A stretch of DNA of 64,000 nt, from contig NZ_REFY01000002.1 in assembly GCF_003841485.1 (NCBI RefSeq), positions 558,001-622,000 on the forward strand, given 5' to 3'. Position numbers and translations under genes: made by a program. Shown piece after piece: positions 2,707 through 27,389 of the stretch (within the stretch, counting starts at the first letter, position 1; every line of letters begins with the position of its first letter). The notes beneath the pieces were generated by a model. It searched no databases. It had not been told where the DNA came from and saw nothing but the letters and a program-made list of their open reading frames with translations. Origin of the DNA: Natrarchaeobius halalkaliphilus. GTDB lineage: Archaea; Halobacteriota; Halobacteria; Halobacteriales; Natrialbaceae.

Positions 2707-3009
2707 CTACGGTCCCGGCGAACTGAACGGCTCGGGTGAACCGCCGAAAAAGCTGATTCCGATCAAGATTGTCAGTATCAGCATCGAAACCCACATCGTG
2801 ACCGTGATTCCGACGAGGTAGCCGACACCGCGAACTCCGGCGGTGGATTCTCGAGGCGTTCCGACGAACCACGCGATCACCATCACGTAAACGGGGAGCA
2901 AGACGACGCCGAAGATGAGCCACGTGCCGACGTTCGGAAAGCCGGTGAGCCCTTCGGTTCCCTCGAACCCGTGGTAGAGAACGACGAAAAGTGCGGTTGA
3001 TAATATCAT
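2707..3009 (-). CDS. small membrane protein, paralogue A
   Basis: About 100 residues with two to three hydrophobic segments. It is clearly homologous to the next gene upstream (3125-3442): both share VLYHG-EGTEGLTGFPN-GT-LIFGV near the N-terminus, a second segment with PVYVMV-AWFVG, and a C-terminal GG-PEPF motif. I chose the ATG at 3009 because it aligns with the paralogue's start; an upstream in-frame start at 3060 adds unrelated residues. It lies 115 bases after the paralogue and 119 before mrp on the same strand. No known family was recognised; context suggests an accessory membrane subunit of the FeS/NrfD complex. Confidence 0.82.
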   Translation of the reverse strand: MILSTALFVVLYHGFEGTEGLTGFPNVGTWLIFGVVLLPVYVMVIAWFVGTPRESTAGVRGVGYLVGITVTMWVSMLILTILIGISFFGGSPEPFSSPGP

Positions 3010-3124
3010 TCCACACTCGAGAGTTCCACGTCGGCGGGAGTCGTAATACCGCCTGCACACTCATGGTCGTCGAATGCCACGGAGAAGTCCTACCCGAAAG
3101 AATCGACAAAACGGGCCGATCCGA

Positions 3125-3442
3125 TTACGGCGGGCCGACGACACCGAACGGTTCGGGGAGTCCGCCGTAGAAGACGAGACCGATGATCATCGTCAGGAAG
3201 AACATCCCGATCCACATCTGTGCGGTGATTCCGACGAGGTAGACGACGCCCATCAGACCGGTCTTGGAGTTCCGTGGTTCACCGACGAACCACGCGACCA
3301 CCATCACGTAGACGGGAACCAGGATAACCCCGAAGATGAGGTAGGTCCCGATGTTGGGGAATCCGGTCAGTCCCTCAGTCCCTTCGTAACCGTGATAGAG
3401 CACGAACGAGAGGGCGGACACGATCGACGCCGGCGCGATCAT
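3125..3442 (-). CDS. small membrane protein, paralogue B
   Basis: 105 residues, two to three transmembrane segments, and a tandem paralogue of 2707-3009. Its start codon overlaps the stop of the NrfD gene by four bases (3439-3442), indicating translational coupling. The charged loop with EPRN/TPRE between segments 2 and 3 is conserved in position between the paralogues. I see no heme-binding His pairs or Cys clusters, so it is more likely a structural or assembly subunit than a redox carrier. The function is unassigned. Confidence 0.85.
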   Translation of the reverse strand: MIAPASIVSALSFVLYHGYEGTEGLTGFPNIGTYLIFGVILVPVYVMVVAWFVGEPRNSKTGLMGVVYLVGITAQMWIGMFFLTMIIGLVFYGGLPEPFGVVGPP

Positions 3443-4848
3443 GCTTCCACCTCCGGTTCGGTCGCGGCGTCATCCGCGGGCTCGTGGTCGCCGCCGTGGC
3501 CGTGATCGCCACGAAGGTGTTCGACGGCGTGGAGTTCGACGACCGGAACCAGCTTCGAGACGACCAGGAAGATCAGCGTGACCATCCCGATCGTGCCGGC
3601 CAGCGACATCAACTCGATGGCGCTCGGGAAGTAGTCACCGGGGGTTCCCTCGTAGATGCCGAACGCCGGATACCAGAAGCCGGAGATGACGAAGTAGGTC
3701 TTTTCGACGAGCGTCGCGAACAGCACGAACACGCCGGCGACGATCGCGCGCTTCTTGCTGAACAGCGACGGTCGAATCGTCGTCGCGAAGATGTACGCGA
3801 GGACGCCGAGTACCATCACCATCGGGACGATGTACATCGGGTGCGAGAGCTTGGAGGCGGTCGCATCCGCGTGGTCGACAGTCGGCGCGAAGCTACCTGC
3901 GGTGAGCTGTTGGAGTTGCAACCAGAGGAACAACAGCGAGAAGAATCCGAGCCACAACAGGAGTCCACGGAAGACGTCGTCGGTGATGATGTGATCCCAG
4001 TCGTACGCGCGACGGAACGCGTATGAAATCAGGATAACGCCGCTGATAGCCGACGTCAGCGCGATCGTCAGGAACTGTGGTCCCTGGATCGCACCGAACC
4101 AGCCCGGATAGCTCGGCAGGACGGCGAACAGCCACGGAATCACGCCACCGTGGAGCAACAGCGGAGCCATGATGATGATGGCCAGCGCGAGCCACCAGAC
4201 CATCCGCTGGATGATCTCGTCTTCTTTCTCGCTGTAGCCGACCGTCATCCCGTCGTAGATCAGTCCGTACACGTCCGGAAGCTGGCGGCCGCCGACTTCC
4301 GGCGCGAACGAGGGAAGCTGATCGCGAAGTCGCGAGATGTCGTATCGAAGCGTGAGACCGAGATAGGTCGCCGTCAGCACGAAGTACGCCGTGATGACGG
4401 TCACGTCCCACACCAACGGCGAGTTGTTCACCGTGATGTGATAGTGGCCCAGCACGCTCGTGACCATCCGGTCCGGACGGCCCATGTGAACGAGGATGTA
4501 AAACCCGGCCGCCGACAGGCCGGCGATCGTCAACAGTTCCGCGAGTCGGGCGACCGGCATGTACCGGTCCATCCCCAGCAGGCGAACCGCGGCCGACAGG
4601 ATGATCCCGCCGTGGGCGATCCCAACCCACCAGATGAACGCGCCGATGTACAGTCCCCAGGTAACGCCGCCTCCGGTACCCCAGTCGGAAAGACCAGTGA
4701 CGACCAGCCCCTGTTGAAGCTGGTACATCCAGCCGACCAGGAACACACCGAACACGAGGGCGCAGGCGCCAAACAGCGCGACGTACTTCTTCGTGAACGT
4801 GTGGGTCGGACGAAGGATGTCCTCCTCGGTCGGCGTCTTCGTGCTCAT
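3439..4848 (-). CDS. nrfD: NrfD/PsrC-family integral membrane subunit
   Basis: 469 residues with about ten hydrophobic segments, closer to ActC/HybB-type members than to eight-helix NrfD. Recognisable family features are the LVHMGRPDR loop after helix 3 and the HPMY segment before helix 8. The family binds menaquinone/menaquinol and exchanges electrons with an FeS partner. The ATG overlaps the stop of the four-cluster FeS gene by four bases (4845-4848), and its own stop overlaps the next gene by four. The C-terminal tail is His/Asp/Glu-rich. No molybdopterin catalytic subunit lies nearby, so the electron acceptor is not given by the operon itself. Confidence 0.9.
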   Translation of the reverse strand: MSTKTPTEEDILRPTHTFTKKYVALFGACALVFGVFLVGWMYQLQQGLVVTGLSDWGTGGGVTWGLYIGAFIWWVGIAHGGIILSAAVRLLGMDRYMPVARLAELLTIAGLSAAGFYILVHMGRPDRMVTSVLGHYHITVNNSPLVWDVTVITAYFVLTATYLGLTLRYDISRLRDQLPSFAPEVGGRQLPDVYGLIYDGMTVGYSEKEDEIIQRMVWWLALAIIIMAPLLLHGGVIPWLFAVLPSYPGWFGAIQGPQFLTIALTSAISGVILISYAFRRAYDWDHIITDDVFRGLLLWLGFFSLLFLWLQLQQLTAGSFAPTVDHADATASKLSHPMYIVPMVMVLGVLAYIFATTIRPSLFSKKRAIVAGVFVLFATLVEKTYFVISGFWYPAFGIYEGTPGDYFPSAIELMSLAGTIGMVTLIFLVVSKLVPVVELHAVEHLRGDHGHGGDHEPADDAATEPEVEA

Positions 4849-6458
4849 AGGGACACCCCGGCGTCACCGACGGTTCCCTCGTCGACGACCTCCTTGCGGT
4901 TGTCCGTCAGGCCGACGTCGTCGTAGGCGACCGGACCGTCGACTTGCTCCGCGTTCGGGCCGGGTTCGTTACCCAGGTAGACGACGTTCGGGTTGGTCCC
5001 GATGTCCTCGAGCAGCCGGAAGTTCGACTCGGGTGCACCAGCGAAGTTCTCGAGTGCGGTCTGAGCGTCGCTTTCGCTCGCGCCGTCGAACTCCTCGTCC
5101 TCGTCGGGTTCGTCAGCGAGACGCAGTTCAACGAGAACCTCTTCGCTCTCGAGGTCGAGGCCGTGCGCCTCGAGGACGTCGATGACCTCGAGGAGATTTT
5201 GTTCGTACGCGACGTACTCGGCATCGCCCTGTCCCATCTCCTCGGAGACGGTGTCGATCGCGAGAATGACCCTGAGCATCTCCTCGTCGAGATCCTCCGC
5301 GGCCTCGAGAACCGATTCGAGATCGTCGTCGGCACCCTCGAGTTCTTCTGTGAGCGCGTCAGCCGACGGTCCTTGCGAATCGACCTGAACGAGCGCACGG
5401 CCGCGGCTCGGATTATCGACGTACGTTTGTGGGTCGCTGTCGGGATCGTTCATGTCTCCGAACTGGATCGCATCCGGTGGACAGGCCTCCTCACAGGCCG
5501 TGGTTCCGACGTACTCGTCGCCTTTGAATCCGTCCTGACGGGTCGGACACATCGTACACTTGCTCATCACACCGCGTGGCGCGCGACTGTCGACCCAGCG
5601 ATCGCGCTCGTCGTACATGTGCTCGTTCTCCGCGCCCATCTGCTCTGCGTGTTCGCGAACCTCCTCGACGCTCGCATCGGGTTCGTCCCACTGGAAGTAG
5701 TTGACGCCGTAGGGACAGGCGACCTGACAGTACCGACAGCCGATGCAGACGTCGTAGTCCGTCAGAACGAGCCCGTCGTTCTCGCGGGTGTGGCGGGCCG
5801 TCGTGGGACAGACTTTCTCACACGGTGCGTCGGTACAGTGCTGACAGGGACGCACGAGTCGGTTGCGACTCGTATCCGCGCCACCCCGTGGCTCTTCGTA
5901 ATCGAGGATGTACATCCAGTTGACACCCTGATCCAGGTCGTTCTCCTGGGAACAGGCGGTAACACAGGAGAGACAGCCGTCACAGCGCTCGAGATCGATC
6001 GCCATTCCCCACTGAATATCACCTTCACGGGAGGATTCGGTCACCGAGTCCGCGTCAGCGACGTTCGGTTCGGGGTCGCCGCCGTCGGCGGTACCCCAGG
6101 CCCCGAGTCCAACAGCGGCCGCGCCGGCACCCATCTTCTTCATCGCATCCCGGCGACTGTCCTCGCCGTCACCCTCGAACTTCGAGAGCATCCGGGACAT
6201 GGTCCCCTCCTCGGCCGCCTTCATCTCTTCGAAGGCTTCCTCGGTCGGACGGTCGTCAACGCCGAACTCATCCATCACGTCGTCGTGATACATCTCGTGG
6301 AATTCGGCTTCGGATAGTTCGCCTTTGGTGACGCGCATCGCGTCTTTGGCCATCTCCAGTCCGAGATCGCTGTCGTACTCGGTGTCGTCCAGCATGGCCT
6401 CGAGTTCCGTCTCCCACTCCTTGCCGAGCGGATGGAACGATTCGTCGTCAGTGCTCAT
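4845..6458 (-). CDS. four-cluster (4Fe-4S) ferredoxin subunit with internal Tat-like motif
   Basis: 537 residues from the ATG at 6458, chosen because MSTDDESFHPLG aligns with the FHPLG start region of the paralogue at 25965; an in-frame extension to 6596 is unsupported. An acidic N-terminal region (1-100) is followed by SRRDAMKKMG plus an Ala/Gly-rich stretch, resembling a Tat signal but about 100 residues in. Four cluster motifs follow: CDGCLSCVTAC (from about 159), CQHCTDAPCEKVC (205), CIGCRYCQVAC (238) and CTMC with a later CEEAC. This is DmsB/NrfC/ActB-type wiring. A long acidic C-terminal extension is shared in its last part with the paralogue. It heads an operon with the NrfD subunit. 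Confidence 0.92.
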   Translation of the reverse strand: MSTDDESFHPLGKEWETELEAMLDDTEYDSDLGLEMAKDAMRVTKGELSEAEFHEMYHDDVMDEFGVDDRPTEEAFEEMKAAEEGTMSRMLSKFEGDGEDSRRDAMKKMGAGAAAVGLGAWGTADGGDPEPNVADADSVTESSREGDIQWGMAIDLERCDGCLSCVTACSQENDLDQGVNWMYILDYEEPRGGADTSRNRLVRPCQHCTDAPCEKVCPTTARHTRENDGLVLTDYDVCIGCRYCQVACPYGVNYFQWDEPDASVEEVREHAEQMGAENEHMYDERDRWVDSRAPRGVMSKCTMCPTRQDGFKGDEYVGTTACEEACPPDAIQFGDMNDPDSDPQTYVDNPSRGRALVQVDSQGPSADALTEELEGADDDLESVLEAAEDLDEEMLRVILAIDTVSEEMGQGDAEYVAYEQNLLEVIDVLEAHGLDLESEEVLVELRLADEPDEDEEFDGASESDAQTALENFAGAPESNFRLLEDIGTNPNVVYLGNEPGPNAEQVDGPVAYDDVGLTDNRKEVVDEGTVGDAGVSL

Positions 6459-6612
6459 CGACTCAGAACACCCCCTGGGAATTTCATATCTCTCACAGAA
6501 GGGATACTCAGCGACAGATACTTGAATACGTTCATTTGTGATCCACTGGTCCGGACTCACAACTAGATCGGGTTGAAGTGTGGACTCGATTTCCACGACG
6601 TGAGAATTGCCA

Positions 6613-6624
6613 CGAACATGTTCG
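6613..6624. promoter_or_regulatory. palindromic operator candidate upstream of the FeS/nrfD operon
   Basis: The perfect 12-bp palindrome CGAACATGTTCG lies 155 bases upstream of the FeS gene start and is followed by an AT-rich stretch (ATAATATAAATTGAA). The identical 12-mer occurs upstream of nirK at 7661. With the HTH_10 regulator gene between them, both are likely binding sites for one anaerobic or denitrification regulator. The pairing is direct observation; the function is inferred. Confidence 0.65.
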
Positions 6625-6688
6625 ATAATATAAATTGAACACTCGCTCCCAAAGCCGGTAAATGTCCGATCAAAGCGTCGAGCCGACG

Positions 6689-7363
6689 TCAGCTCGGTGC
6701 GAGCTGTTCTTCGAGCGAATCGTCATCCTCGAGTCCGGGAACGTCCTCGAGGAAGCGCTTGACGATCGCTTCCTCGGCCCGGTGGAGAGTCTCACTGCAG
6801 GTCGATTTTGCGATGTCGAGATGGTTGGCGAGTTCCGTAAGCGACGAGCGGCGGGGAGTATCGTAGTAGCCGACCTCGACGGCGGCGGCGACGACCTCGA
6901 GCTGTCGGTCCGAGAGGAGTTGGCCGTCGTGAAGTCGTTCGCTCACGCTCTCGATGCGGTACTGGAGCCCGAACTGCTCGAGCTGTCCGGCGAGTTCCGC
7001 GAGACGGTCTCGCGAGCCGGCCACCTCGAGCGTCGCTCGCCCGTCGCGAATCTCGACCGGAAGTTCGATCGGCATTCCCGACGCCCGCGAGGAGAATAAA
7101 AGCAGGGGAGCCGTCGTCTCGAAGTGGATCGTCGCTTCCTCGTCACTCCACTGAACGATCGACAGTTCCAGAATCTGTGAGTGATTCTCGATGTCGGTGA
7201 CGATCTCTCGAACGGCGGGTCCAGCGATCCGGACGAGCGCGAAGCCGGTCTTGGCGTCCGGGACGGCAGCCAGCACTCGAAACGTCGCGTCCGGATATCG
7301 CGTAGAGATCTGTTGAACCCACACCTGCTCTGGCAGCGTGACCGTGAGTGTCGCCTGGGCCAT
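6689..7363 (-). CDS. bacterio-opsin-activator-type (HTH_10) transcriptional regulator
   Basis: 224 residues. The C-terminal region (about 155-205: LSDRQLEVVAAAVEVGYYDTPR...SLTELANHL) is the HTH_10 domain of Bat, DmsR and NarO-like regulators. The N-terminal 150 residues form a sensor-like region without the Cys-rich motif found in DmsR/NarO-type redox sensors, so any signal is probably not sensed by an FeS cluster. The gene sits between the FeS/NrfD operon (same strand, downstream) and the divergent nirK, each with the palindrome CGAACATGTTCG. It is a good candidate to control both, although an unlinked regulator could use that site. Confidence 0.88.
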   Translation of the reverse strand: MAQATLTVTLPEQVWVQQISTRYPDATFRVLAAVPDAKTGFALVRIAGPAVREIVTDIENHSQILELSIVQWSDEEATIHFETTAPLLLFSSRASGMPIELPVEIRDGRATLEVAGSRDRLAELAGQLEQFGLQYRIESVSERLHDGQLLSDRQLEVVAAAVEVGYYDTPRRSSLTELANHLDIAKSTCSETLHRAEEAIVKRFLEDVPGLEDDDSLEEQLAPS

Positions 7364-7749
7364 GTGAATACCTTCTGTGCGAAATGACGACTCGTGTCCA
7401 CGAATAGATTCCCGGGATTCCTACGAAGTGGGAATGCGACCGGGACGGCTCCGGCCGCTCCATCAGCCGTCGAAGCGCTCGAGCAGGACAGCAACCATCG
7501 GTGAATCGCCTCGAGATCAAGCCCCGGGGCAGTCTCCCTGTACTCCGTAAAACGGTACAGCGCTCTCGGGCAGCAAGAGCGACGTCCGACACGGGAGATC
7601 GTCTCGAGCGGGCGGCGATCGGCATTCGAACGGGGCAACGACGGTGTATCAACGGCCGAACGAACATGTTCGCAAGTGTTCTTTGAGGGAGGGAATCGTC
7701 GGAGAAGTTGATTAGATAGGTACCATTGTCCCAAACGAGGTGGAATACA
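7364..7749. promoter_or_regulatory. divergent promoter region between the HTH_10 regulator and nirK
   Basis: 386 bases with no convincing gene. It must hold the promoters for the regulator (leftward) and nirK (rightward). The only clear element is the 12-bp palindrome at 7661-7672. An AT-richer stretch (GATTAGATAG, about 7712-7721) lies 30-40 bases before the nirK ATG, where an archaeal TATA box would be expected. Confidence 0.6.
7661..7672. promoter_or_regulatory. palindromic operator candidate upstream of nirK
   Basis: CGAACATGTTCG, identical to the site at 6613-6624, 78 bases upstream of the nirK ATG. A partial second half-site (AGTGTTCT) follows within 10 bases. Its placement just upstream of the expected TATA region suits an activator site. 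Confidence 0.65.
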
Positions 7750-8841
7750 ATGACGATATCCACAGCAACTCGACGAACGTTCATGCAGGCGGCAGGCGCA
7801 ACCGGTGCCGTCGCAGTCGCGGGCTGTCTCACCGGTGAACGCGTCGAAAACGATCCGGAGCCGGAAGCGAGCGACGCCGACGAGGGACTTCGACCGGCGG
7901 AGGCGGTCGACGTCGACCGCATCGGTGCGGATCCGGCGGACGTACCGCCCCCTGTCGACTGGAACGAACCGCGAACCCACGAGTTCACCCTCGAGACGGT
8001 CGAGGTGACGGCCGAGATCGAACCGGGCGTGACCGTGGAGTACATGACTTACGAGGGACAGATTCCGGGTCCGATGATTCGGGTTCGGGAAGGAGACACG
8101 ATCGACCTCACGTTCGAGGTTCCGGACGATCTCAACAGGACCGTCCACAACGTGGACTTCCACGCGGTCTACGGCCCCGGCGGCGGTGCAGAGGCGACGA
8201 CGATCAGACCCGGTGACGAACCGGCCAGACTCCAGTTCGAAACGAGGTATCCCGGAGTCCACATCTACCACTGTGCCGTCCCGGCGATGGATCAGCACAT
8301 CAGCCTGGGAATGTTCGGGGCGATCCTCGTCGAGCCGAAAGATGGTCTCCCCGAAGTCGACCGCGAGTTCTACTTCGGCCAGCACGAACTGTACACCGAC
8401 GGTGAGATGGGCGAGGAGGGACACCACCACTTCGACTTCGACGCCTCGGCCGACGAGGAGCCGACGTACGTCCTCCTGAACGGCGAGGCGTACGGCTTCA
8501 CCGAGGACGGCCAGCACGGCCCCGTCGAGGCCGAAGTCGGGGAAACCGTCCGGGTCTACTTCGCCAACGGCGGCCCCAACTTCACCAGCGCGTGGCACCC
8601 GATCGGCAACGTCTGGTCGCGGCTCTACCGCGACGGCGACCTGCTGACGGAGCCGGCCAGATACGTCGAGACGTCCCCCATCGCACCCGGGACCGTCGTG
8701 GCGGGCGAGATGGAACTCCCCGTCCCGGGTCCGATCAAAATCGTCGACCACGCACTCTCGAGAGTGGTCCACAGGGGCGCACTCGCGACGATCGACGTCG
8801 AGGGCGAGCCGAACCCCGACGTCTACGACGAAGATCCGTGA
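7750..8841 (+). CDS. nirK: copper-containing nitrite reductase, Tat lipoprotein
   Basis: 363 residues; reduces nitrite to NO on the outer face of the membrane. The ATG at 7750 places TRRTFMQAAG at residues 7-16, a Tat signal followed by the lipobox VAGC, so export as a lipid-anchored protein is likely. Type 1 copper ligands: His of HNVDFH, Cys of YHCAV, His of DQHIS and Met of LGMFG. Type 2 ligands: second His of HNVDFH, His of YHC, and a C-terminal His (VDHALSR). Catalytic Asp lies in HNVDFH and catalytic His in AWHPIG. Cys and His of the type 1 site are separated by seven residues, as in AniA-like class II enzymes. It is transcribed away from the HTH_10 regulator. Confidence 0.95.
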   Translation: MTISTATRRTFMQAAGATGAVAVAGCLTGERVENDPEPEASDADEGLRPAEAVDVDRIGADPADVPPPVDWNEPRTHEFTLETVEVTAEIEPGVTVEYMTYEGQIPGPMIRVREGDTIDLTFEVPDDLNRTVHNVDFHAVYGPGGGAEATTIRPGDEPARLQFETRYPGVHIYHCAVPAMDQHISLGMFGAILVEPKDGLPEVDREFYFGQHELYTDGEMGEEGHHHFDFDASADEEPTYVLLNGEAYGFTEDGQHGPVEAEVGETVRVYFANGGPNFTSAWHPIGNVWSRLYRDGDLLTEPARYVETSPIAPGTVVAGEMELPVPGPIKIVDHALSRVVHRGALATIDVEGEPNPDVYDEDP

Positions 8842-25964: not shown

Positions 25965-27389
25965 ATGAGTTCGAACGACGACGACAGGACCGGTGACGAC
26001 CGAAAGAACGGTGACGACGGCCGGGGCGAAGAGCCGTTTCACCCGCTCGGAACCGAGGCGGAAGATCGGTACGAGGCCATGCTCGAGGAGGGAGAGTACG
26101 ACGCGGAACTCGGCATGGAAATGGCCAAAGACGCCATGGCGCTTACGAAAGGGGAGCTCTCCGAATCGGAGTTCTACGACCGCCACCACGAGGCCATCCT
26201 GGAGGAGTTCGGGGAGGACGACCGACCGATGGCCGAGCGAGTCGAGTCGGCTCGAGAGGAGGGACGACTCGAGGGAGCGCTCTCCCGACTGGGTGCGGAC
26301 GACGAATCGCGACGCGCGGTGATGAAGAAAATGGGCGCGGGAGCCGGCGCCCTCGGGTTGGGTGCGTTCACCGCGACCGACGACGGTACCGAGGCCGATC
26401 CGAGCGTCGCGGCCCAGGATGACGACGCAGACGACACCGCAGACGGCGACGACGTCCAGTGGGGGATGGCGCTCGACCTCGAGAGCTGTGACGGCTGTCT
26501 CTCCTGTGTCGTCGCCTGCAACGCAGAACACAACTGGAACGAGGGGGCGAACTGGATGTACATTCTGGCCTACGACGACGGAACCGTCGAGTCGCCCGAG
26601 CCGGAGCAGGCGGACACCGCCCGCGATTTCAACTACCTGATCCGGCCCTGCCAGCACTGCACCGACGCACCGTGTGAGAAAGTCTGCCCGACGACGGCCC
26701 GTCACACCCGCGAAGACGGCGGACTCGTTTTGACGGACTACGACGTCTGCATCGGCTGTCGGTACTGTCAGGTCGCCTGTCCCTACGGCGTCAACTACTT
26801 CCAGTGGGACGACCCGGAGGTTCCCGACGAGGAGCTCAACGAGGACATGATCTACGACGACCGGGACCGGTGGGTCAGCAGCCGCGGTCCACGCGGCGTC
26901 ATGGAGAAATGCATCTTCGACCCCGCCCGACAGGACGGCCAGATGGGCGAAGACATGGTCGGGACGACCGCCTGCGAGGACGCCTGCCCACCCGGTGCGA
27001 TCCAGTTCGGCGATATGAACGATCCCGACAGCGATCCGCGACAGTACCTCGAGAACGTCCCGCTCGCCCGCGCCAGAGAGCAAGCCCCCGACGATGACGA
27101 CGAGCTACAGGAGGCGATCGCGATCCTCGACGGAGACGAAGAGCCGGACGAGATGGACGAAGAGGACGCGATGGAACTTCTCGAAGCCGAGTTCGGCGAC
27201 GACGGCTCGCGATTCAAGCTCCTAGAGGAGTTCAACACCAATCCGAACGTCACGTACATCGGCAACGAGCCGGGCGCGAACGCCGAGCAGGTCGAGGGGC
27301 CGGTCGCCTACGCGGACGTCGGGCAGGTCGACAATCGAAAGACGGTTCTCGACGAGAAAACAGTCGGGTTCAACGAACTATCACTGTAG
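25965..27389 (+). CDS. four-cluster FeS protein, stand-alone paralogue of 4845-6458
   Basis: 474 residues. Same layout as 4845-6458: acidic N-terminus with FHPLG, a Tat-like SRRAVMKKMGAGAGALG at about residues 115-131, then cluster motifs CDGCLSCVVAC, CQHCTDAPCEKVC and CIGCRYCQVAC, and the conserved C-terminal GNEPGANAEQVEGPVAY block. The fourth motif differs: CIFDPARQ replaces CTMCPTRQ, so the second Cys is Asp (checked in the DNA, GAC near base 26920). No NrfD gene follows. It probably needs a membrane partner encoded elsewhere, possibly the NrfD at 3439, or works with one altered cluster. Confidence 0.9.
   Translation: MSSNDDDRTGDDRKNGDDGRGEEPFHPLGTEAEDRYEAMLEEGEYDAELGMEMAKDAMALTKGELSESEFYDRHHEAILEEFGEDDRPMAERVESAREEGRLEGALSRLGADDESRRAVMKKMGAGAGALGLGAFTATDDGTEADPSVAAQDDDADDTADGDDVQWGMALDLESCDGCLSCVVACNAEHNWNEGANWMYILAYDDGTVESPEPEQADTARDFNYLIRPCQHCTDAPCEKVCPTTARHTREDGGLVLTDYDVCIGCRYCQVACPYGVNYFQWDDPEVPDEELNEDMIYDDRDRWVSSRGPRGVMEKCIFDPARQDGQMGEDMVGTTACEDACPPGAIQFGDMNDPDSDPRQYLENVPLARAREQAPDDDDELQEAIAILDGDEEPDEMDEEDAMELLEAEFGDDGSRFKLLEEFNTNPNVTYIGNEPGANAEQVEGPVAYADVGQVDNRKTVLDEKTVGFNELSL

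Follow-up and report, generated by a model that had tools for sequence, protein, structure and literature searches.

In the 64-kb window of Natrarchaeobius halalkaliphilus (the window being the whole stretch of DNA that was analysed), an operon for an FeS subunit and an NrfD-like membrane protein carries the same promoter element as nirK, which raises the question of where this operon sends electrons. A sequence-only reading had proposed a route dedicated to haloarchaeal denitrification. Our analysis makes it probable that the operon, including its small membrane proteins and Mrp ATPase, encodes a heme-free and molybdopterin-free enzyme resembling alternative complex III (ACIII), predicted to act as a menaquinol:halocyanin oxidoreductase in place of complex III, and that this enzyme is duplicated with the present copy under control of the shared element.

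The FeS subunit (4845–6458, minus strand) combines a Ferredoxin_N domain (PF16947) with 4Fe-4S domains and contains an internal Tat-like RRxxMKKMG motif. In the alignment of relatives the twin arginine is invariant, as are 16 cysteines for four [4Fe-4S] clusters. The adjacent gene (3439–4848, minus strand) encodes an NrfD/ActC-like membrane quinol-site subunit (PF03916), assigned by this domain and by homology to ActC; both gene identities agree with the sequence-only reading. Its product is 94% identical to the NrfD of N. chitinivorans AArcht7, the nearest named relative. We found that the operon extends past NrfD, on the same strand, to two small membrane proteins, the first at 3125–3442 and the second, 68% identical to it, at 2707–3060, and, by conserved synteny, to an Mrp/ApbC FeS-cluster carrier ATPase (1496–2587) that is the conserved last gene. 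The order HTH_10 gene, box and leader, FeS, NrfD, one or two small membrane proteins and Mrp/ApbC was present in all 20 of the neighbourhoods first inspected. Genomes with a single copy retain the whole operon, which we count in favour of the proposed function. The FeS start codon is most likely the ATG at 6458 and not the GTG at 6596, which places the box 154 nt upstream.

This box, the exact 12-bp palindrome CGAACATGTTCG, lies at 6613–6624 on the minus strand with a TATA-like sequence directly upstream (6625–6637, minus strand), and recurs at 7661–7672 on the plus strand before nirK; in agreement with the sequence-only reading, an exact search found no third copy in the window. The whole genome (3,511,219 bases) holds three exact copies, the third being located 69–70 nt upstream of a Tat-lipoprotein blue-copper (halocyanin-like) gene (C2:360410–360421). 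The relaxed form CGAAYATRTTCG recovered the same three sites and the reversed control pattern none. In 24 of 28 relatives the box closely follows a TATA-like sequence and precedes the FeS ATG by 142–155 nt, a conservation of position that is more than chance. Based on the genome counts and the position kept in relatives, we rejected a chance origin of the palindrome. Neither is it a novel signal, as it has been published as CGAAYATDKTYG in Haloferax mediterranei, where it occurs at the nar, nirK, nor and nos promoters and where its mutagenesis lowers nos and nor promoter activity (PMC10062603, PMC11218638).

The nirK gene (7750–8841, plus strand) encodes a Tat-lipoprotein copper nitrite reductase whose TIGR02376 match (360.6 bits) exceeds the curated cut-off, confirming the earlier gene call. 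Its start is most likely the ATG at 7750, 77–78 nt from the box, and this spacing of ~78 nt corresponds to the 79 nt between box and ATG at H. mediterranei nirK (PMC10062603), as expected for the haloarchaeal denitrification-box regulon. The two sites in the window are thus true copies of the known denitrification control signal. What is new about the box is that it forms half of a composite operator, comprising the box, a 4–5 nt gap and a TTC-N11-GAA repeat, and that it is placed at the FeS/NrfD operon. The second element, ATTCTCACGTCGTGGAAAT, is located at 6589–6607 (minus strand), 5 nt downstream of the operon box, and its counterpart at nirK, GTTCTTTGAGGGAGGGAAT, at 7678–7696 (plus strand). 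An operator common to both genes, as had been claimed, is therefore present as box and second element alike, but it is longer than the 12 bp first assigned to it. Most boxes have such an element, with the consensus RTTCYYA-N5-TRGGAAY, 4–5 nt away on their gene-facing side. Of 21 sites, 12 had TTC and GAA at the fixed spacing, against a shuffled expectation of 0.3% (p ~7e-25); this p-value is only descriptive, given that some of the sites are related to one another and that the test was made after the motif had been noticed. GAA was found in 16 of the 21. A stricter test, which asked whether this element is a symmetric palindrome and used 16 sites, did not reach significance, and the Haloferax larsenii nirK box has the GAA and not the TTC at the expected spacing.

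In close relatives we identified boxes at nirK, DUF2249, HTH_10 and halocyanin genes, and also at two neighbouring genes that by eye resemble those for a CuA-oxidase subunit and a membrane protein. The system resembles that of Haloferax in its palindrome, in the distance to nirK and in a regulon that includes HTH_10 and DUF2249 genes (PMC10062603, PMC11218638), whereas here the box also lies at the FeS/NrfD operon and halocyanin and is joined by the TTC-N11-GAA element. Natrialba swarupiae has an exact box, lacking the second element, 72 nt upstream of a dihydroxy-acid dehydratase (ilvD)-like gene (L215, G160:C12:25285).

The gene between the two boxes (6689–7363, minus strand) was confirmed as an HTH_10 regulator by its match to PF04967. 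Because the box lies 39–44 nt upstream of HTH_10 genes in relatives, this protein is a natural candidate for binding it. NarO reportedly combines an N-terminal four-cysteine motif with an HTH_10 domain. The HTH_10 protein adjoining the FeS/NrfD operon differs from NarO in having one cysteine, which rules out a NarO-type cysteine motif.

The shared operator prompted the proposal that FeS/NrfD serves denitrification as a dedicated route by which quinol supplies electrons to NirK. Besides the box and second element common to the operon and nirK, it is favoured by the box being known from denitrification genes (PMC10062603) and by the proximity of nirK, which is no more than 10 kb away in 15 of the 41 operon loci from named organisms. 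We nevertheless consider a dedicated route improbable. Within Natrialbaceae, 56 genomes have both FeS/NrfD and NirK, 34 NrfD only, 6 NirK only and 5 neither, so that the two are independent (Fisher p=0.75), and many NirK-free genomes, among them Natrialba swarupiae (G160), G032 and G057, retain both operon and box. Searches for NarG, Nor and NosZ in the N. halalkaliphilus genome found none, and the boxes at the CuA-oxidase-like gene and its neighbour in a relative also argue against a purpose confined to NirK. Having NirK without these three enzymes, N. halalkaliphilus is a one-step denitrifier.

The distribution of the operon follows the absence of cytochrome b instead. We surveyed 394 Halobacteria genomes for strong NrfD matches (E<1e-100) and cytochrome b (PF00033), and found NrfD only in 96, cytochrome b only in 262, both in 33 and neither in 3 (Fisher 1e-58, relatedness ignored). 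The pattern holds inside the family (80, 11, 10 and 0, respectively; p=2e-9) and outside it (16, 251, 23 and 3; p=3e-13), relatedness again being ignored in both tests. Strong NrfD is thus present in 96 of the 99 genomes without cytochrome b, which represent about five separate lineages (the main Natrialbaceae, genera g41, g60 and g65, and family f11), all NrfD-positive; cytochrome b is also absent from the N. halalkaliphilus genome. Among the three genomes that have neither protein, two (G007 and G094) lack a heme-copper oxidase as well, in keeping with the proposed function, whereas the third (G368), a 91% complete draft, has an oxidase and counts against it, as do the 33 genomes with both. 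Given this complementarity and the lack of association with NirK, the operon tracks the need for complex III and not nitrite reduction. FeS/NrfD would share with the haloarchaeal cytochrome b6f/bc1-like complex (PetABD) the reaction from quinol to halocyanin, although the proteins are unrelated and their distributions nearly complementary.

Structural comparisons connect the operon to ACIII. A sequence-profile search of the PDB with NrfD matched nothing but ActC, in all four ACIII structures (E 1e-25). The AlphaFold model of NrfD is of middling confidence (pLDDT 66.6, pTM 0.70), and its best four Foldseek matches are ActC (TM 0.74–0.80), with PsrC far behind. Of the quinol-site residues described in R. 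marinus ActC, His139, Asp169 and Asp253 (PMC5928083), the first two align with the invariant NrfD residues His121 and Asp148, whereas Asp253 aligns with a leucine, a point against the proposed function. For the FeS subunit, matches were obtained to ArrB and, in each of the four ACIII structures, to the FeS domain of ActB; its own model was poor (pLDDT 50.9) and left unused, and the quality of both models weighs on the negative side. In common with bacterial ACIII (ActABCDEF; PDB 6f0k, 6btm, 6lod, 8k9e) are an ActC-like NrfD in which the histidine and one aspartate of the quinol site are conserved, an ActB2-like FeS subunit that has four clusters and carries a Tat-like motif, and the replacement of bc1, here judged by distribution only (96 of 99). 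By contrast, the operon lacks ActF; in the FeS subunit only the C-terminal B2 part of ActB is matched, the fused MopB-like (molybdopterin-like) B1 domain being absent, and neither the pentaheme ActA nor the monoheme ActE cytochrome c was found in the annotated and ORF-scanned loci. The FeS subunit has Ferredoxin_N and 16 cysteines, and two small membrane proteins and Mrp are present instead. The lack of ActB1 and of the cytochromes, which we also count against the proposed function, kept us from classing FeS/NrfD as an ACIII member, but it most likely works like one.

The resemblance of the FeS subunit to ArrB and NrfC types, the NCBI annotation of this family as an NrfD/PsrC molybdoenzyme membrane anchor subunit and the grouping of haloarchaeal DmsC near ActC (PMC8076601) would also suit an electron-transfer module of a molybdoenzyme encoded elsewhere, similar to DmsBC or PsrBC. 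This is very doubtful, however, since no catalytic Mo-bisPGD subunit adjoins the operon in the loci inspected, and the only three Mo-bisPGD proteins of the N. halalkaliphilus genome are two formate dehydrogenase alpha subunits and the assimilatory NasA. The earlier description of a quinol-linked FeS/NrfD unit that has an electron-route function and no catalytic subunit holds in these loci. In NZ_CP101459.1 and NZ_CP119797.1 (L294, L295) the public annotation reads 'molybdoenzyme membrane anchor subunit' with no molybdoenzyme gene near.

Gene neighbourhoods point to halocyanin as the probable acceptor of the ACIII-like enzyme. Halovivax, Natronosalvus, Natrononativus, Halomontanus and genus g60 have a halocyanin gene directly before FeS in the same orientation, and further halocyanin matches were obtained in Natronobiforma and Salinarchaeum; the two upstream halocyanins tested exceeded the TIGR03102 cut-off. 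In a genome of another family (G258), one exact CGAACATGTTCG stands between a blue-copper gene and the FeS operon, which run in opposite directions away from it, and this blue-copper protein is 54% identical to that at the third box of N. halalkaliphilus. We found no paper in the openly accessible literature that links NrfD with halocyanin in haloarchaea. The CuA motif is typical of oxidases with a one-electron donor. Both N. halalkaliphilus oxidases have it complete in subunit II (CFELCGAGHSGM, CNEYCGPDHHNM), which fits such a donor. That the oxidases draw directly on menaquinol and bypass complex III, leaving FeS/NrfD another role, as proposed for natronoarchaea inferred to use quinol oxidases and to lack ACIII (PMC6176080), counts against our proposal but is the least likely alternative, given these CuA motifs and the NrfD/cytochrome b complementarity that it leaves unexplained. 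For ACIII of phototrophs, a blue-copper acceptor (auracyanin) is named in the title of a paper that PMC10100899 cites.

Based on the sequence, synteny, homology and distribution of the operon, in particular the complementarity with cytochrome b and its absence here, the ActC/ActB likeness, the halocyanin neighbours and the CuA oxidases, we infer the following reaction, direction and acceptor. NrfD would bind menaquinol near the outer membrane face, and the exported ActB2-like FeS subunit would pass electrons through its four [4Fe-4S] clusters to a lipid-anchored blue-copper halocyanin, which may in turn supply CuA-type oxidases and, in genomes encoding them, NirK and probably also NosZ. The enzyme would stand in for cytochrome bc/b6f wherever haloarchaea have lost that complex. 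One genome (G129, L275) has a divergent FeS/NrfD operon and a halocyanin-like gene and neither cytochrome b nor heme-copper oxidase; an operon without such an oxidase counts against this scheme.

Electron flow from quinol to halocyanin has been described as unresolved in haloarchaea without bc1, about one third of haloarchaea and most Natrialbales (PMC8305020 section 3.1e; PMC3403918). We think it reasonably likely that this two-subunit, heme-free and molybdopterin-free relative of ACIII is the long-sought complex III of that third, with menaquinol as its donor and copper halocyanin as its acceptor, and that it was duplicated into a low-oxygen/denitrification isoform under the composite box operator. 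The published gap thereby gains a concrete candidate in an operon whose current annotation is that of a molybdoenzyme membrane anchor. If true, this would suggest that the ActC/FeS core of ACIII can operate without hemes, using copper carriers.

The leader between box and FeS start (6459–6612, minus strand; ~150 nt) is strongly conserved. As a structured RNA it was rejected, since Rfam gave nothing above cut-off and RNAalifold no pair with a compensatory change, leaving the fold without covariation support. Its short upstream ORF (MNVFKYLSLS..., 6455–6535, minus strand) was likewise rejected as a conserved peptide: the ATG is invariant and the amino acids and frame vary. When compared with halocyanin genes, the leader aligns with their 5' regions and its ATG with their starts (shuffle p 0.002–0.02 for several, others not significant). 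The leader may thus be what remains of a halocyanin cistron that was lost, and the ORF possibly the relic start of its gene.

A second FeS subunit, FeS2, is encoded in the window (25965–27389, plus strand) with neither NrfD nor box beside it, which makes the FeS/NrfD operon described above the box-controlled isoform. Far from FeS2 in the same genome lies NrfD2 (G000:C6:17938–19254, L204), and in the NrfD tree (FastTree) it belongs to a clade of Natrialbaceae copies that have no FeS gene beside them. In three genomes of genus g3 the second FeS is ~330 bp from the second NrfD. NrfD2 is thus the likely partner of FeS2, and together they probably make up a second isoform that lacks the box. Duplication in the main Natrialbaceae lineage would have left one copy, with its halocyanin and nirK, under the denitrification/low-oxygen box and the FeS2/NrfD2 copy free of it. 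The box-controlled FeS subunit (4845–6458) carries a ~100-residue acidic insert at approximately residues 365–475 that is absent from the halocyanin-linked single-copy FeS proteins (L150, L190, L194 and L170).
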